Origin: Magnetococcales bacterium
GTDB taxonomy: Bacteria; Pseudomonadota; Magnetococcia; Magnetococcales; DC0425bin3
NCBI GenBank assembly: GCA_015231175.1
Contig: JADGBZ010000005.1
Span: forward strand, 1-64,000
Length of the DNA: 64,000 nt
Direction: 5' to 3'
In this document: positions 1 to 10,824 of the stretch, in pieces
Numbering within the stretch: position 1 is the stretch's first letter
How the letters are laid out: each line of letters begins with the position of its first letter
Program-made: the position numbers and the translations under genes
Notes under the pieces: model-generated
Databases searched by the model: none
What the model saw: the letters and a program-made list of their open reading frames with translations, nothing else
Told to the model about the DNA's origin: nothing

Positions 1-3000
1 GAAGGTGTCGTAACTGCGTCCGCCCGGGTGGACCACATGATAGGTGCAGCCACCAACGGCGCGTTTGTTCCAGGTGTCGAAGAGATCGAACACCAGGGGG
101 GAATGGACCTTGATGAGGGGGTGCATGGCGGAAGGGGGTTGCCAGGCTTTGAAACGGACCCCGGCGACGTACTCTCCGGCGGTGCCAGTATTGTTCATGG
201 GGAGGAGGTGGCCATTGCAGGCAACCTGGTAACGATCCGGGGGGAGGTTGGCGATGCGGATCTGGATGCGTTCGGCGGAGGAGTCCACAAAACGGGTGGT
301 TCCCTGGCGGCTGAGCTCCTCGCCGAGGACGTGCCAGGGCTCCAGCGCCTGCCGCAGTTCAAGATGGACTCCCTGTATTTGGACCTCGCCTATTTTGGGG
401 AAACGAAATTCGAGAAAGGGATCCAGCCAGGCATCCTGGAATGGATAACCGGCTGCCCGCAGTTCGGCGGCCACCTCGGCCACGTCCCGGGCGACGTGAT
501 ACGGCAGCATGAAACGGTCATGCAGGGTCGTGCTCCAACGCACCAGAGGGATGCGATAGGGCTGCTGCCAGAATCGGGCGACCAAAGTCCGGAGCAACAC
601 CATCTGGACCAGGCTCATCCTGGCATGCGGGGGCATTTCAAAGGCGCGCAGTTCCAGTAAGCCGAGACGGCCTGTGGGGCTGTGCGGGGCGTAGAGTTTG
701 TCGATGCAAAACTCTGCCCGGTGGGTGTTGCCGGAGATGTCCACCAACAGGTGGCGCAACAGCCGATCGGCAAGCCAGGGTTGGTCGCTTTCGCCGTTGG
801 GAATCTGACTGAGGGCGATTTCAAGCTCGTGGAGATAGTCGTCGCGGCCTTCATCGACACGCGGCGCCTGGCTGGTGGGGCCGATGAAAAGGCTGGAAAA
901 GAGGTAGGAGAGCCCTGGGTGGTGCTGCCAATAGGTGATCAGACTGGCGAGCAGGTCGGGGCGCCGCAACAGGGGGCTGTCGGCAGGGGTCGGTCCCCCC
1001 AGGGTGACATGGTTGCCGCCGCCGGTGCCGGTGTGGCGGCCATCCAGCAAAAATTTTTCCGTCGCCAAACGGGCGTTGCGAGCCTCTTCGTAAAGCACGG
1101 TCGTGCAGTGGACCAGGTCGGCCCAATGGTGGGCGGGATGGATGTTGACCTCGATGACCCCGGGGTCCGGGGTGACATAAAACTTGTTGAGACGCCAATC
1201 TTCCGGGGGTGGATACCCCTCCAGAAGGACTGGGATGGCCAACTCTTGGGCTGTGGCCTCGATGGCTTCGACCACGGCCATGAACCCCTCCAGATGGGTC
1301 AAGGGTGGCAGAAAGATGCACAGACGCCCCTCCCGGGGTTCGATGCAAAGCGCCGTGCCGATGAAATCAGCCAGCAGGGCTGCCGCGACCGGTTGCTGTG
1401 CCGGCAGGGGTTCCCTGGGTTCAAAAGCGCACCGTTCGGGAGGTGAAGGTCGCTTCTCCGGAGGCGTGGCGTGCAACGATTGCAGGGGGAGCCGCAAGCC
1501 CATGGGGGAGTCGCCGGGAATCAGAAAAAGGTGCCCCTGACGTGTTTGCCACAGGCAACTGATCCAGCGGGATGCGTGTGGATCCCAGGCCAGGGGGAGG
1601 GCAAAACCCACCGGATTTTGCAACCCCTGGGACAGGATACGCGCCAGGCGTTGCCGGTCCAGGGAGTCCTTCAGAGAGGCTTGCAGGGGATCGACGCCCA
1701 CGGGGAGGGAGTACTCCTGCCAGATGTGATAGATCGGGTCTTCGTAGGCGGGGGTGAGGGCCGATTCAATACCACCCAGCCGGGCGGCCAACCTTTGGGC
1801 GAAGCGTTGGGCGGACGCGATATCCTGACCATCGTTGCGGGTGGGGTCTCCCTGGAGGTCGGGGTGGTGCCAGAGAGGCTGGCCGTCGGTTCGCCAGTAA
1901 CAGGCGTAACGCCAACGCGGCAGCTCCTCCCCGGGGTACCACTTGCCCTGGGCGAAGTGCAACAGGGATCCGGTGGCAAAACGCCGGGCCAATCGCAACA
2001 GCAGATCGTGGGCTCGCTCCCGTTTGTGGGGACCGTCGGCTGCCGTCGTCCACTCCGGGCCGTCCATGTCGTCGATGGAGACGAAAGTGGGTTCCCCCCC
2101 CATGGTGAGGCGGATGTCGTTGGCCACGATTTCCTCATCCACCTGCTCCCCCAAGGCCAGAATGGCCGACCACTGGTCATCGGTGTAGGGTTTGGTGACG
2201 CGGGGATCTTCCTGGATACGGGTCAAGGTGTTGGCGTGGTGGAATGTGACCTCGCAAGGATCGCTGTTGCCGGTGACGGGCGCGGCGTTGCGAGGATCCG
2301 GCGTACAGGCCAGGGGAATATGCCCCTCTCCGGCGAAGAGGCCTGAGGTGGGATCCATGCCAATCCAGCCGGCCCCGGGCAGATAGACCTCACACCAGGC
2401 GTGCAGATCGGTAAAATCGGCGGGGGGGCCGGAGGGTCCGTCCAGGGATTTGACATCCGAGACCAGTTGGACCAAATATCCGGAGACAAAACGGGCGGCA
2501 AGTCCCAGCCGGCGCAGGGCCTGCACCAGCAGCCAGGCGGTATCCCGGCAGGAACCGGTTCCCTTGGCAAAGGTCTCCTCACAGGATTGGATCCCGGGCT
2601 CCATGCGGATGGTGTAACCGATCTTCTTTTGCAGCGCTTGCAGGGTTTCGGCGAGAAAATCAATGGTGGGACGAGGTTTTTGGTTCAGGTTTTGCAGCCA
2701 TTTTTCCAGGTGCGGGCTGGTTTCTCTGACCTCAAGATAGGGTTGCAGCTCCTTCAGGAGTTCTTTTTCGTAGGGGAAAGAAAATGTGCGGGCCGACTCT
2801 TCCAGGAAAAAATCGAATGGATTGATGGTGACCATGCGGGCCACCACCTCCACGTCGATGCTCAGTTCCCGGCAGAGTTCCGGAAAGACCACCCGGGCAA
2901 GAAAATTGCCGAAAGGATCCTGCTGCCAATTGATGAAATGGGGCTCCGGTCGGATCTTCAGGGTGTAGGAGTCGATGGGCGTGCGGCAATGCGGCGCCGG

Positions 3001-3087
3001 ACGCAGGCGGATGACGTGAGGCGAAAGGGAGACAAGGCGGTCGAATCGATAAGAGGTTTGATGGCGGATGGCGACACGGATGGTCAT
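1..3087 (-). CDS. Transglutaminase-like / DUF2126 protein (C-terminus cut by window edge)
   Basis: About 1029 codons are present, reading from ATG at 3087 off the left edge without a stop. Residues 1-80 match the N-terminal beta domain of bacterial transglutaminase-like proteins. A papain-like transglutaminase core follows, with Cys180 in GTGSCRDTAW, His229 in DLHAWCEVY and Asp245 in GMDPTSG forming the expected triad. The remaining ~780 residues correspond to the DUF2126 region typical of ~1100-residue members, so only the last few dozen residues should be missing. The gene lies 21 bp behind the Anbu gene on the same strand and is probably co-transcribed with it. In known operons this family travels with Anbu, circularly permuted ATP-grasp and alpha-E proteins and is predicted to cleave or cross-link peptide/isopeptide bonds. 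The substrate is unknown. Confidence 0.9.
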   Translation of the reverse strand, partial: MTIRVAIRHQTSYRFDRLVSLSPHVIRLRPAPHCRTPIDSYTLKIRPEPHFINWQQDPFGNFLARVVFPELCRELSIDVEVVARMVTINPFDFFLEESARTFSFPYEKELLKELQPYLEVRETSPHLEKWLQNLNQKPRPTIDFLAETLQALQKKIGYTIRMEPGIQSCEETFAKGTGSCRDTAWLLVQALRRLGLAARFVSGYLVQLVSDVKSLDGPSGPPADFTDLHAWCEVYLPGAGWIGMDPTSGLFAGEGHIPLACTPDPRNAAPVTGNSDPCEVTFHHANTLTRIQEDPRVTKPYTDDQWSAILALGEQVDEEIVANDIRLTMGGEPTFVSIDDMDGPEWTTAADGPHKRERAHDLLLRLARRFATGSLLHFAQGKWYPGEELPRWRYACYWRTDGQPLWHHPDLQGDPTRNDGQDIASAQRFAQRLAARLGGIESALTPAYEDPIYHIWQEYSLPVGVDPLQASLKDSLDRQRLARILSQGLQNPVGFALPLAWDPHASRWISCLWQTRQGHLFLIPGDSPMGLRLPLQSLHATPPEKRPSPPERCAFEPREPLPAQQPVAAALLADFIGTALCIEPREGRLCIFLPPLTHLEGFMAVVEAIEATAQELAIPVLLEGYPPPEDWRLNKFYVTPDPGVIEVNIHPAHHWADLVHCTTVLYEEARNARLATEKFLLDGRHTGTGGGNHVTLGGPTPADSPLLRRPDLLASLITYWQHHPGLSYLFSSLFIGPTSQAPRVDEGRDDYLHELEIALSQIPNGESDQPWLADRLLRHLLVDISGNTHRAEFCIDKLYAPHSPTGRLGLLELRAFEMPPHARMSLVQMVLLRTLVARFWQQPYRIPLVRWSTTLHDRFMLPYHVARDVAEVAAELRAAGYPFQDAWLDPFLEFRFPKIGEVQIQGVHLELRQALEPWHVLGEELSRQGTTRFVDSSAERIQIRIANLPPDRYQVACNGHLLPMNNTGTAGEYVAGVRFKAWQPPSAMHPLIKVHSPLVFDLFDTWNKRAVGGCTYHVVHPGGRSYDTF

Positions 3088-3108
3088 GGGAAACAGCCTC
3101 GTCAAGTC

Positions 3109-3855
3109 TCAGGAGTGGTCTTTGAGTTTTTCCCAGTTGAACGGGGGGAGTCCGTGGAAGATGCGTTCCAGGCCCTTGTGCCAGTGCTTGCACAGGGAGA
3201 GCAGATAGGGGTTGTCCTGTCCGAGACGGGCCTGGGTGCCGCCGTCGAGTTGACCAGAGTGGAGCATGAGCAGGTCGATGGGTGGACCGACCGTCAGGTT
3301 GGAACGCATGGTGGAGTCCAGAGAGACCAGGGCGCAGCGCGTGGCGTCGTCGATGGACATCCCGACGTGTACGATCCGGTCGAGGATGGGTTTGCCGTAT
3401 TTGGTTTCACCGATCTGAAGGAAAGGGTGATAGGGGGAGGGAGCGATGTGGTTCCCTTCCGGGTAGATCAGAAACATGGCGTGCCGGGCCGAGCCGATCT
3501 GGCCGGCCAGAATGAAGGTGGCTTCAAAGCGCACGGAGGAGTCTTGTCGATCCTCGGATCGTTTTTGTACATCGAGGCTGACCGAGCCGAGATAGTCGGC
3601 GGCGGCATGCATGTCCACCACGGTGCGCAGGCTGGTTTTGCACTCCGGATTTTCGCTGTCCAGGAAGAGGCGGTGGACCACTGCCTGTGTCGTGGCCAGA
3701 TTGCCCGAGGAGAGCAGGACGAACTGGCGTTCCCCTTTCCAAACGAAGGTGAACATTTTGGGATAGGAACCCACCTGGTCCACACCGGCATTGGTGCGTG
3801 AGTCGGAAGCGAGTATCATGCCCTCGTTGAGTTGAATGCCGACGCAATAGGTCAT
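3109..3855 (-). CDS. Anbu, proteasome-like N-terminal nucleophile peptidase
   Basis: 248 residues, the usual length for Anbu (ancestral beta subunit), a bacterial relative of HslV and the 20S proteasome beta subunit. It starts Met-Thr-Tyr-Cys-Val-Gly, so removal of Met exposes the candidate Thr nucleophile directly without a propeptide. The SDSRTNAGVD motif near residue 18 is the Anbu counterpart of the proteasomal SDSR region. It is the first gene of a minus-strand pair with the DUF2126 transglutaminase and is divergent from the ATP-grasp/alpha-E fusion gene, with only 41 bp between the start codons. The neighbourhood is the classical Anbu context and supports a role in trimming or degrading peptide-tagged products. 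A regulatory ATPase is not visible nearby. Confidence 0.93.
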   Translation of the reverse strand: MTYCVGIQLNEGMILASDSRTNAGVDQVGSYPKMFTFVWKGERQFVLLSSGNLATTQAVVHRLFLDSENPECKTSLRTVVDMHAAADYLGSVSLDVQKRSEDRQDSSVRFEATFILAGQIGSARHAMFLIYPEGNHIAPSPYHPFLQIGETKYGKPILDRIVHVGMSIDDATRCALVSLDSTMRSNLTVGPPIDLLMLHSGQLDGGTQARLGQDNPYLLSLCKHWHKGLERIFHGLPPFNWEKLKDHS

Positions 3856-3896
3856 AACGCCTCGTCTATGCCTGGAATGGAGTTGTTGCCGGAAGA

Positions 3897-6458
3897 GTGC
3901 TGAACAGCGACTATTTGACCATGGAGAGCGGAAAGTTGCCCGAGCAGGAAAATCTGGAACCAGGATATCAGGAAGCTTTTGGTGGCGATGGTACGCTCCA
4001 GGCCCATTGGCGGAAATTTTTTGATTTTCTCTATGCCGGTGGACCCGATCTGCCCCAGCGGTTGGAAGAGGATGCCAGGCGTTTGCTGCGGGAATCCGGC
4101 GCGACCTACAATATTCGGGCAGGGCAGTTCAGCCGGCGCCATGTCTGGCCGTTGGATCCGGTGCCGTTGATCATGGACGCCGATCTCTGGGAGCGGCTCT
4201 CCGTGGGTTTGACGCAACGCCATCAGCTCCTTTCGCTGCTGTTGCAGGATCTGTATGGTCCGCGCCGTTGCATCCACGAAGGCATTCTGCCGGCAGAGGT
4301 GGTTTACGGTTGGTCGGGCTTTTTGTTGTCCTCCTATGGCCGCAATACAGGGCAGACGCCGGCTTTGCCATTTTATGCCGCGGATATGGGACGCGATATG
4401 TCTGGACGTTTTCTGGTTCTTTCGGACCGGACGCAGGCCCCTTCCGGACATGGGTACGTGTTGCAGAATCGGCGGGTCATGGGGCGGCTGTATGGCAGCA
4501 CCGGGCAGTTGGCCAACATTCCGCCGCTGTTGCCCTTTTTCCGGGCCATGCGCTCGGATCTGGTGTCTCTGACGCCGTACTCCAAGCAGGAGGCCCATGT
4601 GGTGCTTCTGACGCCAGGGCCGGGTTACGAGACACACTACGAACATACCCTGCTGGCCCATTTTTTGGGATTGACCTTGGCCCAGGGAGATGATCTGGCC
4701 GTGCGTCATGGCCGCCTGTGGCTGAAAACCCTGGATGGGTTGATGCCTGTCGAAGTGGTGCTGCGCCGGGTTGATGAGACCTGGTGCGATCCTCTGGAGT
4801 TGCGGGAGGATTCGATGTTGGGGGTGGTGGGGTTGACCCAGGTGGCCCGGGCAGGACGGGTGGCCATGGCCAACGTTCTCGGGAGCGGCGTTCTGGAAAC
4901 CCTGGCCATCCAGGCTTATCTGCCCCGCCTTGCCAACTATTTTCTTGGCGCGGATCTGCTTCTGGCGAGTCCCCGCACCTGGTGGTTGGGTGATCCGGTT
5001 CAACGAGCCGAGGCTGTGGCGCGTTGGTCCGAGTTGACGATCCTGCCTCTGGCCTATGATCCGGTCTATCCGATATCCGGCAATGCTTCGGTTGCAGCAC
5101 TCTCCAGGGAACAGGTTCTCGCGATGCCGCACCGCTTTGTTGCCCGGGAGAGTTTTATCCCATCCCGGGCGCCCTGCATCCATGCTGGCCAGCTTGGTCA
5201 CCAACCGGTCCTCATTCGCGCCTATCTCTCCAGCGATGGGCAACATGCCCGGGTGATGCCGGGGGGATTGGCGCGCGTTGCCACGGGACATAGCGGTTCT
5301 CTGGCTTTTTCCCCCACGCAGGGGGGGGTTGCCAAGGATATCTGGATTGTTGCCGCGCAGCCTTTTGAACAACGTGAGACCCTGGTCAGCACGCCCATTC
5401 TGAATCCGGCGCCGCTGGTCGGCGTTCCCAGCCGGGTGGCGGAAAACCTGTTTTGGATCGGGCGTTATGCGGAGCGGGCTGAAGGAACGATTCGTTTGTT
5501 TCGTGAGTTCATGGCCTTGGATACGGAGGAGAACTCCTTGACCTCCCGGCAGCGTGACCTGTGCCGCCGGCTGCTTTTGACCACCTTCACCCACGTCACG
5601 GCCACCTACCCCGGGTTTACGGGCGAGGAGGGGGCTTATGCCCTCTCCGATCCATTTTCCGAACTTTTTTCGACTCTCCTGACTCCCGAACGGGTCGGCA
5701 GTCTGGCCTTCTCTCTGCGATCCATGATTCATGCGGCTTTTTCGGTGCGTGATCGTCTCTCGACCGATACCTGGGAAGTCCTGGACGGCATCTCCCAGGC
5801 CTTGGACGCCCTGCAAGGACGCATGCCCCGGAATCTTGGAGGGCTCTTCTGGGAGACCGGACCTCTGCTGCAGGGATTGACCGCTTTTTCCGGCCTGACC
5901 TGGGAAAATATGAATCGTGACCTGGGGTGGCGGTTCCTTGATCTGGGGCGCCGCCTGGAACGCAGCATGTTTTTGGCGCAGGTCTTGGAAACCACCCTGG
6001 CCGAACCGGTGGAAGAGAGCAGTGAGACGGCCATCATGGAGCGGTTGCTCAACGTCAACGACAGTCTGACCGCCTTTCGCATGCAGTTCCAGACCACGAT
6101 GGAACTCTCTCTGGTGCTGGAAAAGTTGTTGCAGGATGATACCAATCCACGTTCGCTGGTGTTTCAGTTGACTCTGATGGAGAACCATGCGGCAGCCATT
6201 CCACGCAGCCCGCACCAGAATCTCTACCGCACCCATTTGGGCAGGGTGGTCTTCGAGACCCTTGCCGCCGTGCGCCTGGCAGATCCCGGGGAGCTGATCC
6301 GCGTGACCGAAGCGGGGGGGCAGAGGGAGAAACTGATCGACTTGACGGGCCGCATCCGGAAACTCCTGCCACTCTTCTCCGAAACAGCCTCCAACAGTTA
6401 TTTTCGTCATGCCGACCCTCCCCACCACTTGTTCAGAGCCAACAGGAATGCCAGGTGA
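3897..6458 (+). CDS. Circularly permuted ATP-grasp / alpha-E fusion protein
   Basis: 853 residues. The first ~480 form a circularly permuted ATP-grasp (type 2) amidoligase-like domain, recognisable from the GHGYVLQNRRVM segment and its similarity to the separate protein at 8415-9884. From about residue 511 (SRVAENLFWIGRYAERAEG) it continues as an all-helical alpha-E domain resembling the separate protein at 7429-8415. The pair is predicted to make peptide bonds using ATP, yielding small peptides or peptide tags. The start is uncertain: GTG at 3897 has GGAAGA immediately in front, too close for a normal site, and ATG at 3921 has no clear site. The stop overlaps the start of the following transglutaminase gene, indicating translational coupling. 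Confidence 0.9.
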   Translation: MLNSDYLTMESGKLPEQENLEPGYQEAFGGDGTLQAHWRKFFDFLYAGGPDLPQRLEEDARRLLRESGATYNIRAGQFSRRHVWPLDPVPLIMDADLWERLSVGLTQRHQLLSLLLQDLYGPRRCIHEGILPAEVVYGWSGFLLSSYGRNTGQTPALPFYAADMGRDMSGRFLVLSDRTQAPSGHGYVLQNRRVMGRLYGSTGQLANIPPLLPFFRAMRSDLVSLTPYSKQEAHVVLLTPGPGYETHYEHTLLAHFLGLTLAQGDDLAVRHGRLWLKTLDGLMPVEVVLRRVDETWCDPLELREDSMLGVVGLTQVARAGRVAMANVLGSGVLETLAIQAYLPRLANYFLGADLLLASPRTWWLGDPVQRAEAVARWSELTILPLAYDPVYPISGNASVAALSREQVLAMPHRFVARESFIPSRAPCIHAGQLGHQPVLIRAYLSSDGQHARVMPGGLARVATGHSGSLAFSPTQGGVAKDIWIVAAQPFEQRETLVSTPILNPAPLVGVPSRVAENLFWIGRYAERAEGTIRLFREFMALDTEENSLTSRQRDLCRRLLLTTFTHVTATYPGFTGEEGAYALSDPFSELFSTLLTPERVGSLAFSLRSMIHAAFSVRDRLSTDTWEVLDGISQALDALQGRMPRNLGGLFWETGPLLQGLTAFSGLTWENMNRDLGWRFLDLGRRLERSMFLAQVLETTLAEPVEESSETAIMERLLNVNDSLTAFRMQFQTTMELSLVLEKLLQDDTNPRSLVFQLTLMENHAAAIPRSPHQNLYRTHLGRVVFETLAAVRLADPGELIRVTEAGGQREKLIDLTGRIRKLLPLFSETASNSYFRHADPPHHLFRANRNAR

Positions 6459-7354
6459 TGAACTACCGCATCACGCATACCACCCGCTACATCTACAACG
6501 AGCCGGTGACGATTGGCCATAACCGTATTCATCTTAAACCGATGAATTTTCCTGGACAGCGTTGTCACCGCTTTGAGCTGACGGTACGTCCCGAACCGAC
6601 GACATTGCAGGAGTTCGAGGATTTTTTCGGCAACACGGTCCATTACTTCGAAATTCTTGAACCTCATGAGGCCCTGCACATCAAAAGCACCAGTCAGGTA
6701 ACCCGCGAGCCTTTTGTGGTGCATGATTTTTCCGCCTTTCCAGCCTGGGAGCAGGGGTGCCCGGGTCGTCCGGAAGCCCATGACGAGGTGCGCCGCTGGG
6801 CCATTTTTGCCATGGATTCCCCCATGGCGCCGCGTGGTGTCGATTTGTCCGACTTTGCCCGTCCCGACTTTCCGCCGGGGCGATCCCTGGTTGAGGCGGC
6901 CCTGGCTTTTACCCAACGGCTTTACCAGGATTTCAAATATCGACCCGGCAGCACGACCATAGCTACCCCGATCGAACAGGTTTTGCGGCAGCGTTGCGGG
7001 GTGTGCCAGGACTTTGCCCATCTGGCCCTGGGAGCCTTGCGCTCTCTGGGACTCTGTGTGCGCTATGTCAGCGGCTACCTGGAGACCGATCCCCCTCCGG
7101 GAATGCCACGTCTGGCCGGAGCGGATGCCTCGCATGCCTGGTTCGCCCTCTTTGTCCCCGGCATGGGGTGGGTGGACTTCGACCCTACCAACGGCATCAT
7201 TCCCTCCACACGCCACATCACGGTGGCTGTGGGGAGGGATTACACCGACGTTCCCCCGGTCAAGGGGGTGGTGTTGGGGGGGCGTGAGCATGTCTTGAAG
7301 GTCTCCGTCGATGTGTTGCAGGATGATTTCCAATCATCAGGGGGCCTTGCATAG
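6458..7354 (+). CDS. Transglutaminase-like protein
   Basis: 298 residues, the common length for stand-alone bacterial transglutaminase-like proteins. It has an N-terminal beta-rich domain (YRITHTTRYIYNEPV) and then a catalytic core with Cys183 (QRCGVCQDFAH), His226 (ADASHAWFAL) and Asp240/242 (WVDFDPTNG). The start is ATG 6458, sharing its A with the TGA of the upstream ATP-grasp/alpha-E gene; an adjacent GTG at 6455 would add one residue. Coupling to that gene suggests the two products act on the same peptide, one forming and the other cleaving or transferring amide bonds. It ends 74 bp before the convergent alpha-E gene. Confidence 0.92.
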   Translation: MNYRITHTTRYIYNEPVTIGHNRIHLKPMNFPGQRCHRFELTVRPEPTTLQEFEDFFGNTVHYFEILEPHEALHIKSTSQVTREPFVVHDFSAFPAWEQGCPGRPEAHDEVRRWAIFAMDSPMAPRGVDLSDFARPDFPPGRSLVEAALAFTQRLYQDFKYRPGSTTIATPIEQVLRQRCGVCQDFAHLALGALRSLGLCVRYVSGYLETDPPPGMPRLAGADASHAWFALFVPGMGWVDFDPTNGIIPSTRHITVAVGRDYTDVPPVKGVVLGGREHVLKVSVDVLQDDFQSSGGLA

Positions 7355-7428
7355 CCCCCGGTTGAGTGTCCCAGTCGGGTGGCCCGGTCGAGTGTCCCGG
7401 TTGGGTGGGGAGATGGATGCGGGTGGGT

Positions 7429-8415
7429 TCACGTTTGAGTCTGTTCGGAGCGGTCGGTTCCTTCTGTTTGGGCAGGCAGGGTGTTGAAGTAAGTCTTGCC
7501 GATGCTGCCATGAAGATGGCCCAGGTGGATTTGAAGTTTGTCCAAAAATTCGTGCAATCCTCCTTCTTCGGCCAATCCCTGTACATCGGCCAGATAGATC
7601 TCCTGTTCGATGGCTTTGATGACCGTTTGGGCTGTTGTATCCCGGCGCAGCTTGGCCAGGCAGTTTTCCACGCCATCGATGCAGTAACGGAACGTGCGCG
7701 GAAACTGGCGATCCTTGAGGAGGAACGCCAAAACCTCCGGCCCGCGCACACGCGGTTCCACCCGCCGGCGATACATCTGGTCTCCCGACAGGGAGCGCAG
7801 TACGGTCAGCCACACGGCGTTGCGCAGGGGAAGATCCATCTGTTTCCAGCTCTCCAGCATGCCGGCTCCCCGCACATCCAGGATGCGGGTGATCATGTCG
7901 GCTCGTTCCAGACAGCGTCCCAATCGGAACATGTGAAAGGCGTCATCCCGGCACATGGTGCTGTCCAGCAGTCCTGTCAATTTCAGGCAGGCATCGATGA
8001 TGCCTTCCAGAAAAGCATGACGTTGGGCGGCTGGTATGTCGCTGTGCAACAACTCCTGGGTGTGGATGGTGAAGGTGTTGAGCGTTTCCCACGCCTCCCG
8101 GGGGAAAAGCTCCCGGGTGCTGCGCATGTTTTCCCTGGCCAGACGCAGGGAAGAGAGGATCGAACTGGGATTTTTTGCATCGGCGATCAAAAACTGCACC
8201 ACGATGGTTTCGTCGATCGTTGCATGGAGTTTGGCAAAATATTCCCTGCTGCCGGTGATTGCGATCAACTGAAACCAGTCCAGGGGACGAACATGGCTGA
8301 TGGGGGCGATGTCCAGCATCGTTTGGTTGGTCGCGATCACGAGGCGGGCGGTACCCTCCACCCTTTCCAGATAGCGGGCCATCCAGTAGATGTTTTCAGC
8401 GACCCTGGAAAGCAT
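7429..8415 (-). CDS. Alpha-E domain protein (DUF403)
   Basis: 328 residues, almost entirely helical, beginning MLSRVAENIYWMARYLERVEG, the signature opening of the alpha-E family. Its start codon overlaps the stop of the upstream circularly permuted ATP-grasp gene (TAATG), so the two are translated as a pair. It is a stand-alone homologue of the C-terminal part of the fusion protein at 3897-6458. The family has no established enzymatic reaction; it is predicted to assist or couple with the ATP-grasp ligase. The sequence ends with a Thr/Glu-rich tail. The gene is convergent with the transglutaminase gene at 6458-7354. Confidence 0.92.
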   Translation of the reverse strand: MLSRVAENIYWMARYLERVEGTARLVIATNQTMLDIAPISHVRPLDWFQLIAITGSREYFAKLHATIDETIVVQFLIADAKNPSSILSSLRLARENMRSTRELFPREAWETLNTFTIHTQELLHSDIPAAQRHAFLEGIIDACLKLTGLLDSTMCRDDAFHMFRLGRCLERADMITRILDVRGAGMLESWKQMDLPLRNAVWLTVLRSLSGDQMYRRRVEPRVRGPEVLAFLLKDRQFPRTFRYCIDGVENCLAKLRRDTTAQTVIKAIEQEIYLADVQGLAEEGGLHEFLDKLQIHLGHLHGSIGKTYFNTLPAQTEGTDRSEQTQT

Positions 8416-9884
8416 TACGATCTCCTTTCATCCAGTATCCAGGTATCCTTGCTCCCCCCCCCTTGCGAGGAGTTGACCACATAGGAACCCCGCCGCAGTG
8501 CGACCCGGGTCAGGCCTCCCGGCGTGACGTAGGATTTGCGTCCGCTGAGAATGAAAGGACGCAGATCCATGTGGCGTGGCTCCAGGCGGTTTCCGACCAG
8601 CGTGGGCGCTGTTGAGGGGGTCAAGGTTTGTTGGCCAATGTAGTTGCGTGGGTTGGCACGGATCCGCGCGGCGAAGGTGGTCCGTTCTGCCGGTGTGGCG
8701 TGCAATCCCATGAGCATGCCGTAACCGCCCGACTCGTTGGCGGGTTTGACCACCAGTTTGTCCAGGTTGGCCAGCACATGTTGACGCTCCTGGGGTATGT
8801 GACACCGCCAGGTGGGGACGTTGGGAATGATGGGCTCCTCCGCCAGATAGTATTGAATGATGTCAGGCATATAGGAGTAAACCACCTTGTCATCCGCCAC
8901 GCCGGTTCCCGGAGCGTTGGCCAAGGCGACCTTGCCCTGACGCCAGGCGTTGATGATGCCGGAAACGCCCAGGGTCGAATCGGGTCGAAACACCAGGGGA
9001 TCGATGAACTGGTCATCGATGCGGCGGTAGATCACGTCCACCCGTTCCAGGCCATGGATGGTCTTCATGAACACCTGGTCATCCTCTCCCACCATCAAAT
9101 CCCGGGACTCCACCAGGGGAACGCCCATTTGTTGAGCCAGGTAGGCGTGCTCGAAATAGGCGGAGTTGTAGATACCCGGGGTCAACACAACCACGTTCGC
9201 TTTGTCGCCGGGACGTGGGGTGAGAGAAGCCAGCAACTCGTAAAGCTGGCAGGGATAGTCATCGACCGGGCGTATGGTGTGGTCCCGGAACAGCTCCGGG
9301 AAGACCCGTTTGGTCAGCATGCGATTTTCCAGCATGTAGGAGACGCCGGAGGGAACCCGCAAATTGTCCTCCAGGACATACATGGTGCCATCCCGATCCC
9401 GCAGCAGGTCACTGCCGCACAGGTGGGCCCAAACGCCATATTTGGGCCGCACCCCCACCAGCGCGGGTAGAAAATTGACGGACTCTGCCAGTACCTCTTC
9501 CGGAAACCGTTTGTCCTGGATGATTTTTCGATCATTGTACAGGTCGTCGATGAAGGCATTCAGGGCATAGGCACGTTGGACCAGGCCCCTCTCCAATTTT
9601 TCCCACTCCTTGGCATCGATGCAGCGGGGGATGATGTCGAATGGCCAGGCCCGGTCGATGTTTTCCCCTTCCGAGTAGACCGTAAAGGTGATCCCCAGGT
9701 TGCGGATGGCGACATCCGCAGCGCTTTGCCGACGGGTCAACTCCTCCACGCCAAGATTCTCGATAAATGGCATCAAGGGTTGCTGATCGTTCCGGCACTC
9801 CTTGGCCTGCATCAGGAGCTCATCAAACACACCAGGGGCCTTATAGAAAGTTCTTTCGATTTGTGGCAGTGCAAGGTTGCTCAT
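8415..9884 (-). CDS. Circularly permuted ATP-grasp type 2 protein
   Basis: 489 residues from ATG 9884 (MSNLALPQIERTF), preceded by GTGAGG; an upstream in-frame ATG at 9935 lacks such a site and would add 17 unlikely residues. The protein has the hallmarks of the circularly permuted ATP-grasp family: RAWPFDIIPRCIDAKEW, a DGTMYVLEDNLRVPSG segment, KPANESGGYGM and a C-terminal NSSQGGGSKDTWIL. It is a predicted ATP-dependent carboxylate-amine ligase making peptide-type bonds. It forms a two-gene operon with the alpha-E gene. It is homologous to the N-terminal part of the fusion protein 2 kb away, so the locus carries two versions of the same ligase module. Confidence 0.93.
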   Translation of the reverse strand: MSNLALPQIERTFYKAPGVFDELLMQAKECRNDQQPLMPFIENLGVEELTRRQSAADVAIRNLGITFTVYSEGENIDRAWPFDIIPRCIDAKEWEKLERGLVQRAYALNAFIDDLYNDRKIIQDKRFPEEVLAESVNFLPALVGVRPKYGVWAHLCGSDLLRDRDGTMYVLEDNLRVPSGVSYMLENRMLTKRVFPELFRDHTIRPVDDYPCQLYELLASLTPRPGDKANVVVLTPGIYNSAYFEHAYLAQQMGVPLVESRDLMVGEDDQVFMKTIHGLERVDVIYRRIDDQFIDPLVFRPDSTLGVSGIINAWRQGKVALANAPGTGVADDKVVYSYMPDIIQYYLAEEPIIPNVPTWRCHIPQERQHVLANLDKLVVKPANESGGYGMLMGLHATPAERTTFAARIRANPRNYIGQQTLTPSTAPTLVGNRLEPRHMDLRPFILSGRKSYVTPGGLTRVALRRGSYVVNSSQGGGSKDTWILDERRS

Positions 9885-10146
9885 GGGGGCCTCACAGTGT
9901 TGAATTGAACCAGGGCATGGTCTTTTTTTGATCATGGACTGCCTGTTAAAAAGGCATTTTTATCCGGATGGTTCATTAAGTTGCTTAAAATGGCACTGAA
10001 TAGTCACCATCACAGTGATAATGGCAAACTGTGGGCCAATGAATGACCGGTTGACGCATCGTTAAGAAATCATTTACATGCATGATTTAAAAAAATAATA
10101 AGGGTATATTGATTTTTTTGTGACAACTGTGTAGTGTCGCGCAGAG
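9885..10146. other. AT-rich divergent intergenic region
   Basis: This 262-bp spacer separates the minus-strand ATP-grasp gene from the plus-strand CMD/Rieske gene, so it should hold promoters for both. A TTGACG hexamer at 10051-10056 with weak -10 candidates lies upstream of the Rieske gene. TGAATAGTCAC at 9997-10007 differs at one base from the terminal repeat of the MITE at 36068-36214, but no partner repeat or element core is visible here. No coding potential was seen. Confidence 0.4.
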
Positions 10147-10824
10147 ATGAAAGGTTCCATCACCCAACGGGAGGATCATGTTGCCATGTCCAAAGCATTG
10201 CGTTATCTGGCTGGTGTGCGTCCTGACGCAGCCCAGAATCTCATGGGTTTTTACAAGCACAGCGTGCAGGCCCTGGATGACAAGACCCGGCATTTGATTC
10301 AGATTGTGACCAAGGTGGCTGTCGGTACCGAGCGGGGATTGCGTCAGTACGCACCCAAAGCGCTCAAATCTGGAGCCACCCGGGAGGAGATTCTGGATGC
10401 CGTCCTGATGGCATTTCCTGCCTCCGGTTTGAACAAGATGCTGGATGCCATCGATGTCCTGCGCGATCTGGATTTGTTGCCGCCCCTGCCTGATGAAGCG
10501 TCACCCTCTCCCCCGGAGAGTTCGCTTCTGGGGCCTTTGAGCAGTTTCCCGGAGCGCAAGATGCAGTGCGTCAATCGGCGCGATGGTGATTTGATCGTTT
10601 ATCGAACAGGTCCAGATACGGTGCGTGTCTATGCCAACCGTTGTCCGCACTCCAAGGCCCCTCTATGCAAGGGGGTGGATCATGGCACAACGGTGGAGTG
10701 CCGGATCCACAACTGGCAATTCGATTTGGCCTCCGGGGCTTGTCTGGGGCCGGATCCCGCCGGTAAGCCCGGCTTGACATCGGTTGCGGTCAAAATCGTC
10801 GATGGACAGGTGACCCTGGTCTGA
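10147..10824 (+). CDS. Carboxymuconolactone decarboxylase-like / Rieske 2Fe-2S fusion protein
   Basis: 225 residues. Residues ~15-110 resemble the helical CMD/AhpD-like fold (ALDDKTRHLIQIVTKVAVGT, GATREEILDAVLMAF), but no CxxC redox pair is present, so AhpD-type peroxidase activity is unlikely. Residues ~130-225 are a Rieske domain with both ligand motifs, CPH and CRIH, separated by 16 residues, enough to bind a 2Fe-2S cluster as in ferredoxin-type Rieske proteins. No signal peptide or oxygenase domain is seen. The start may be ATG 10147 or ATG 10186; the latter has GGGAGG upstream at a long spacing. It is a single-gene unit converging on the KdpE-like gene. The partner reaction is unknown. 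Confidence 0.82.
   Translation: MKGSITQREDHVAMSKALRYLAGVRPDAAQNLMGFYKHSVQALDDKTRHLIQIVTKVAVGTERGLRQYAPKALKSGATREEILDAVLMAFPASGLNKMLDAIDVLRDLDLLPPLPDEASPSPPESSLLGPLSSFPERKMQCVNRRDGDLIVYRTGPDTVRVYANRCPHSKAPLCKGVDHGTTVECRIHNWQFDLASGACLGPDPAGKPGLTSVAVKIVDGQVTLV

Follow-up and report, generated by a model that had tools for sequence, protein, structure and literature searches.

Anbu, ATP-grasp, alpha-E and transglutaminase gene cluster of a Magnetococcales bacterium: two merged modules with one intact ATP-grasp and one apparent pseudo-ligase

Six ORFs of an Anbu/ATP-grasp/alpha-E/transglutaminase cluster were found within positions 1–9935 of the window, which is the first 64 kb (64,000 bp) of contig C5 of a Magnetococcia genome whose nearest named relatives are Magnetococcales MAGs. 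The locus is a merger of two gene modules, A and B, that are separate in many Pseudomonadota. Taken as a whole, the results were best explained by merged and co-evolving modules in which one ATP-grasp protein (AG) would be a ligase, the second (AGE) a pseudo-ligase, and the product linked to nitrogen; the probability of this reading was put at about 0.6.

Gene Content and Family Assignment

AG (8415–9884, reverse strand; the start is at 9884 or, in a longer form, possibly at 9935) matched the Pfam family CP_ATPgrasp_2 with E = 8.8e-164 (545 bits, cut-off 32) and had a full-length PDB relative, 3n6x (E = 2.5e-151). AGE (3921–6458, forward strand) matched the same family far above its cut-off (E = 1.1e-111) and carried a C-terminal Alpha-E domain (E = 5.8e-61, 207 bits). 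The AGE ORF opened with GTG at 3897, and the ATG at 3921 fitted its relatives better. The stand-alone Alpha-E protein AE (7429–8415, reverse strand) matched the Alpha-E profile with E = 8.9e-85 (285 bits), and no relative of it was found in the PDB.

TG (6455–7354, forward strand; 299 aa) is a transglutaminase-like cysteine enzyme that matched Bact_transglu_N and Transglut_core and had the PDB relatives 3isr and 6g49. TGD (1–3087, reverse strand) combined these two transglutaminase domains with DUF2126 (E = 0, 1229 bits, cut-off 27). The Anbu protein (3109–3855, reverse strand), of the proteasome-like Ntn hydrolase family, had the full-length PDB relatives 5loy (E = 4e-68) and 5nyw (E = 3e-56). 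Its identity was taken from these solved Anbu structures because the general proteasome model of Pfam scored just below its cut-off. The first-pass annotation had placed six genes of these families in this span, and its gene identities were recovered, with every ORF matching its family well above cut-off (Anbu through the solved structures). Its inventory lacked DUF2126, a third predicted ligase.

The AGE/TG pair overlapped by 4 bp and the AG/AE pair by 1 bp, and a 21-bp gap separated Anbu from TGD. This spacing makes it likely that there are three transcription units: AG-AE, Anbu-TGD and AGE-TG, of which the latter two would diverge from a short gap. The window gave no match in Rfam or tRNA scans.

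The locus had also been called complete, which did not hold at the contig edge. The TGD gene reached base 1 of the contig without a stop codon and was about 74 residues short of a 1103-aa orthologue at its C-terminus. The missing end was searched for elsewhere in the assembly, and nothing convincing was found. The last ~50 bases of contig C95 were the reverse complement of window positions 594–643, in the middle of the DUF2126 gene, and the C95 sequence before them differed from the window; this identity is probably an assembly branch near a contig break.

Two Modules Across Genomes

A circularly permuted ATP-grasp was found in 161 of the 299 Pseudomonadota genomes sampled. Gene maps showed that module A consisted of AG-AE, often with TG and Anbu, and that module B consisted of TGD-AGE-TG. 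In a set of 60 Pseudomonadota genomes, DUF2126 was present in 27/32 genomes with two ATP-grasp copies compared with 1/28 single-copy genomes (Fisher p = 6e-11, a p-value that is indicative only, given the non-independence of the genomes). Modules A and B lay at most 20 kb apart in 10 of the 27 two-module genomes, far above chance, with the same reservation on independence and the p-value.

Anbu was found in 25/28 one-copy and 19/32 two-copy genomes. In Magnetococcia, the five other genes formed one block in most of the mapped genomes and Anbu was present in a subset; in the window, it sits between AGE and TGD. Anbu is thus an optional component of the cluster. The set of components is not fixed, both on this point and because two otherwise separable modules are joined here.

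Six non-Magnetococcia genomes (L110, L111, L123, L143, L145 and L148) had a gene for a zinc-ribbon and Peptidase_Mx metallopeptidase close to the locus, and this gene is a possible further partner. Because even the controls went unmatched in the Peptidase_Mx search, that search was uninformative on absence.

Conservation and Loss of ATP-grasp Residues

The alignment examined comprised 53 AG and 55 AGE sequences, drawn from Magnetococcia and other Pseudomonadota. In AG, E189, D190 and N191 (the E-D-N motif), K350, K397 and G403 were invariant (53/53 for E189, N191, K350 and K397), and the remaining glycine-rich loop (to 406), D457 and N488 were nearly or fully invariant. In the AGE protein of the window, E189 was replaced by S, N191 by R and K397 by L; the glycine-rich loop was lost, as was K350, the other putative ATP-site lysine. 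The E189/N191 pair was present in all 53 stand-alone AG proteins and absent from all 55 AGE proteins, of which nearly all had S, G or A at position 189 and most had R or H at position 191. One AGE (L123) had E at 189, but H at 191. K350, K397 and the glycine-rich loop were mostly gone across the AGE clade, and the loop was scrambled. The motif region of AGE had no gaps from the conserved D190 to P195-x-G197, and misalignment therefore does not account for the loss. D176, R179, R304, N340 and R459 were retained in AGE.

The assignment of E189 and N191 as putative metal ligands and of K350 and K397 as putative ATP lysines follows from the ATP-grasp fold relation with 3n6x. The AG positions also lined up, in collinear order, with the E-x-N, NK and KP motifs of glutathionylspermidine synthetases. 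The alignment of AG with the profiles of these synthetases was not significant (E = 0.26); the line-up is a lead only, and the residue roles are therefore kept as putative.

The phylogenetic tree showed AGE as a single clade with a support of 1.0 and a long stem. Its dN/dS was about 0.1 against two congeners, indicating purifying selection; the comparison of AG with the truncated L041 copy, which was out of frame, was left out. AGE looks like an ancient and maintained pseudo-ligase rather than a decaying gene, because it is under purifying selection. Judged by their residues, AG and AGE are not both working ATP-grasp ligases, the putative catalytic residues of AGE being lost in every relative examined. 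Of the two ligase modules proposed at first, the one with AG stood and the one with AGE appeared to hold a pseudo-ATP-grasp. Loss of ATP-binding residues in both ATP-grasp domains, which the first-pass annotation had named as grounds for refuting its view, was seen in only one of the two, AGE, with AG intact. The AlphaFold model of AGE (pLDDT 40.5) was too poor for a fold search.

Two further ORFs, one ATP-grasp-like and one ATP-grasp, were observed. The same genome carried a third, weak CP_ATPgrasp_2-like ORF (439 aa; C37:21681-22214), which scored below the family cut-off. One Magnetococcia genome carried an extra stand-alone ATP-grasp (L046; G014:C1:12316-13440) that was 47% identical to AG, and no partner genes were recognised near it.

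Alpha-E, Transglutaminase, Anbu and DUF2126 Residues

The W11-R14-E17-R18 (ER) motif of AE was intact in an alignment of 51 homologues, and R14, E17 and R18 were conserved in both AE and the Alpha-E half of AGE. The latter kept the W-x2-R-x2-ER core and had lost R94, N96, R98 and D173, which were nearly invariant in stand-alone AE. The transglutaminase triads of TG (C184/H227/D243) and TGD (C180/H229/D245) were intact, and T1, D17 and K32 of Anbu (numbered after Met removal) were present in an alignment of 22 homologues. The first-pass statement of fully intact visible catalytic residues accordingly held for AG, both transglutaminase triads and Anbu, and failed for the fused ATP-grasp of AGE.

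In the genus g17 (L061–L067), the convergent TG and AE ORFs overlapped by about 145 bp (for example, 7493–7637 in L062). This tail-to-tail overlap is unusually long and was kept in all members of the genus seen.

DUF2126 is predicted to be an amidoligase according to its Pfam annotation. About fifteen charged or polar positions were invariant or nearly so among 52 homologues, and the invariant candidates were E332, K382, E387, E646, N648, H693, R743, E746, R790, E792, K797, E812, R814 and E817. The DUF2126 profile showed no similarity with the GCS2 enzymes of Magnetococcia, and the AlphaFold model (pLDDT 41.5) was too poor for a fold search.

Sigma-54-Type Site Upstream of AG

A −24/−12-type promoter-like site, TGGCCCACAGTTTGCC, was located at 10023–10038 on the reverse strand; it precedes the longer start of AG by 103 bp. 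The whole window contained 37 sigma-54 consensus sites compared with 38 expected, which is the chance level; therefore, only the comparison across homologues was used. A sigma-54-like site was found upstream of AG in 52% of 54 homologues (p ≤ 0.05 by shuffling), in 30% for TGD and in 4–15% for AE, AGE, TG and Anbu; in these figures, the weight matrix was written from the published consensus, the shuffles are mononucleotide, and the loci are related. The rpoN gene was present in the genome. A gene at 10147–10824, divergent from AG and adjoining the site, encoded a fusion of a carboxymuconolactone-decarboxylase domain with a Rieske [2Fe-2S] domain.

The homologous operons of Pseudomonas putida (PMC8050072; PMC7801951) and Burkholderia cenocepacia (PMC5491218) show NtrC/nitrogen-limitation induction, and the predicted site before AG is in line with this published response. 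Sigma-54 is the probable driver of the ATP-grasp operon, which would hence respond to nitrogen limitation. Such control makes it likely that the product is part of the nitrogen economy.

Proposed Working and Alternatives

We infer the reactions, the complex and the product as follows. Module A would provide one working ligase, AG, which probably uses ATP and Mg2+ to convert a carboxylate to an acyl phosphate and then couples it to an amine, with AE as its partner; the ATP-grasp of Yersinia releases phosphate from ATP (PMC6376114). The DUF2126 region of TGD, fused to a transglutaminase-like cysteine amidase or isopeptidase, would be a second candidate ligase and probably forms a second amide bond. 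AGE would not bind ATP in the usual way and is most likely a structural or substrate-holding subunit that brings its alpha-E domain to the complex. TG, the transglutaminase domain of TGD and Anbu may hydrolyse, transfer, trim or release the amide or isopeptide product. The Anbu proteins assayed so far had no peptidase activity, and no complex with the operon partners was detected (PMC6376114), and connectase, another proteasome homologue, acts as a ligase (PMC8665760). The product is likely a peptide or isopeptide that is made, remodelled or scavenged under nitrogen shortage, and the nitrogen link makes a part in the nitrogen economy the best guess.

The alternatives differ mainly in what AGE does and in what the product is for. 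Two active ATP-grasp/alpha-E modules making two bonds of a peptide or peptide tag would agree with the high family scores of both AG and AGE and with D176, R179, R304 and R459 kept in AGE; given the loss of E189, N191, K350, K397 and the glycine-rich loop across the AGE clade, this is highly improbable. The same retained residues, together with N340 and the shift of E189/N191 mostly to S/G/A and R/H, could instead line a conserved pocket of AGE's own, making it a repurposed ATP-grasp that serves as a dedicated subunit or performs a different chemistry together with the DUF2126 ligase, which we consider quite unlikely.

The cluster might otherwise be a nitrogen-scavenging amide pathway. Its ligases would couple amines with glutamate or a peptide, in the way that GspS and PuuA act on polyamines, and hydrolysis of the amides by the transglutaminase-like enzymes and Anbu would then free usable nitrogen. 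This is unlikely, although it would fit the regulation by nitrogen limitation (PMC8050072; PMC5491218; PMC7801951), the finding in marine metagenomes that these domains co-vary with urea metabolism (PMC3597751) and the annotation of 3n6x, the only solved relative of AG, as a putative glutathionylspermidine synthase; that name is itself an annotation, and the conserved neighbours of the loci included no recognised polyamine or amine-catabolism gene. Very unlikely is a pupylation-like tagging and de-tagging of proteins with Anbu as degrader or deconjugase, a hypothesis cited in PMC6376114. Amide-forming and isopeptide-type enzymes do adjoin a proteasome homologue here, but neither a conserved small tag protein nor an AAA+ unfoldase turned up among the conserved neighbours (ORFs of at least 100 aa), and the lack of peptidase activity of Anbu in vitro speaks against it.

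On the preferred reading of one ligase and one pseudo-ligase in merged modules, a single catalytic ATP-grasp, a pseudo-ligase tied to DUF2126 and an Anbu that goes with the other module can guide co-purification and the choice of mutants. The bond chemistry can be asked separately of AG with AE and of TG-DUF2126, under nitrogen limitation. Anbu is a relative of the proteasome, and the operon family is widespread.

Comparison with Known Systems

Iyer et al. (2009) reportedly predicted peptide-synthesis or amidoligase systems of this kind. Those systems have the same domain set as the present cluster, as cited in PMC6376114 and PMC5666114, and the gene identities agree with the link to a predicted peptide-synthesis or tagging system drawn at first. 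The remark that the reaction product is undescribed also still applies to this system in the literature.

The full-length AG relative 3n6x, a putative glutathionylspermidine synthase, shares the E-D-N motif and is a stand-alone structure. To our knowledge, no activity has been published for it.

The four-gene Anbu operon of Pseudomonas and Yersinia (for example, PP_2685-PP_2688) encodes the same four families, ATP-grasp, alpha-E, transglutaminase and Anbu, with adjacent ATP-grasp and alpha-E genes and a nitrogen-limitation/sigma-54 signature as here. However, the present locus lacks the transglutaminase of module A, has Anbu next to the DUF2126 gene and also incorporates module B. The NtrC-regulated I35_5080-5083 cluster of B. 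cenocepacia (DUF404/407, DUF403, TG and a large TG) likewise brings together an ATP-grasp, an alpha-E, a transglutaminase and a large transglutaminase protein; unlike the present locus, it is described without Anbu and without a fused ATP-grasp/alpha-E gene (PMC5491218). The cluster is therefore of a known kind, predicted in 2009, widespread and biochemically unsolved, to which the present comparison adds two corrections: one of the two ATP-grasps appears to be a pseudo-enzyme throughout its clade, and a third predicted ligase had been overlooked.
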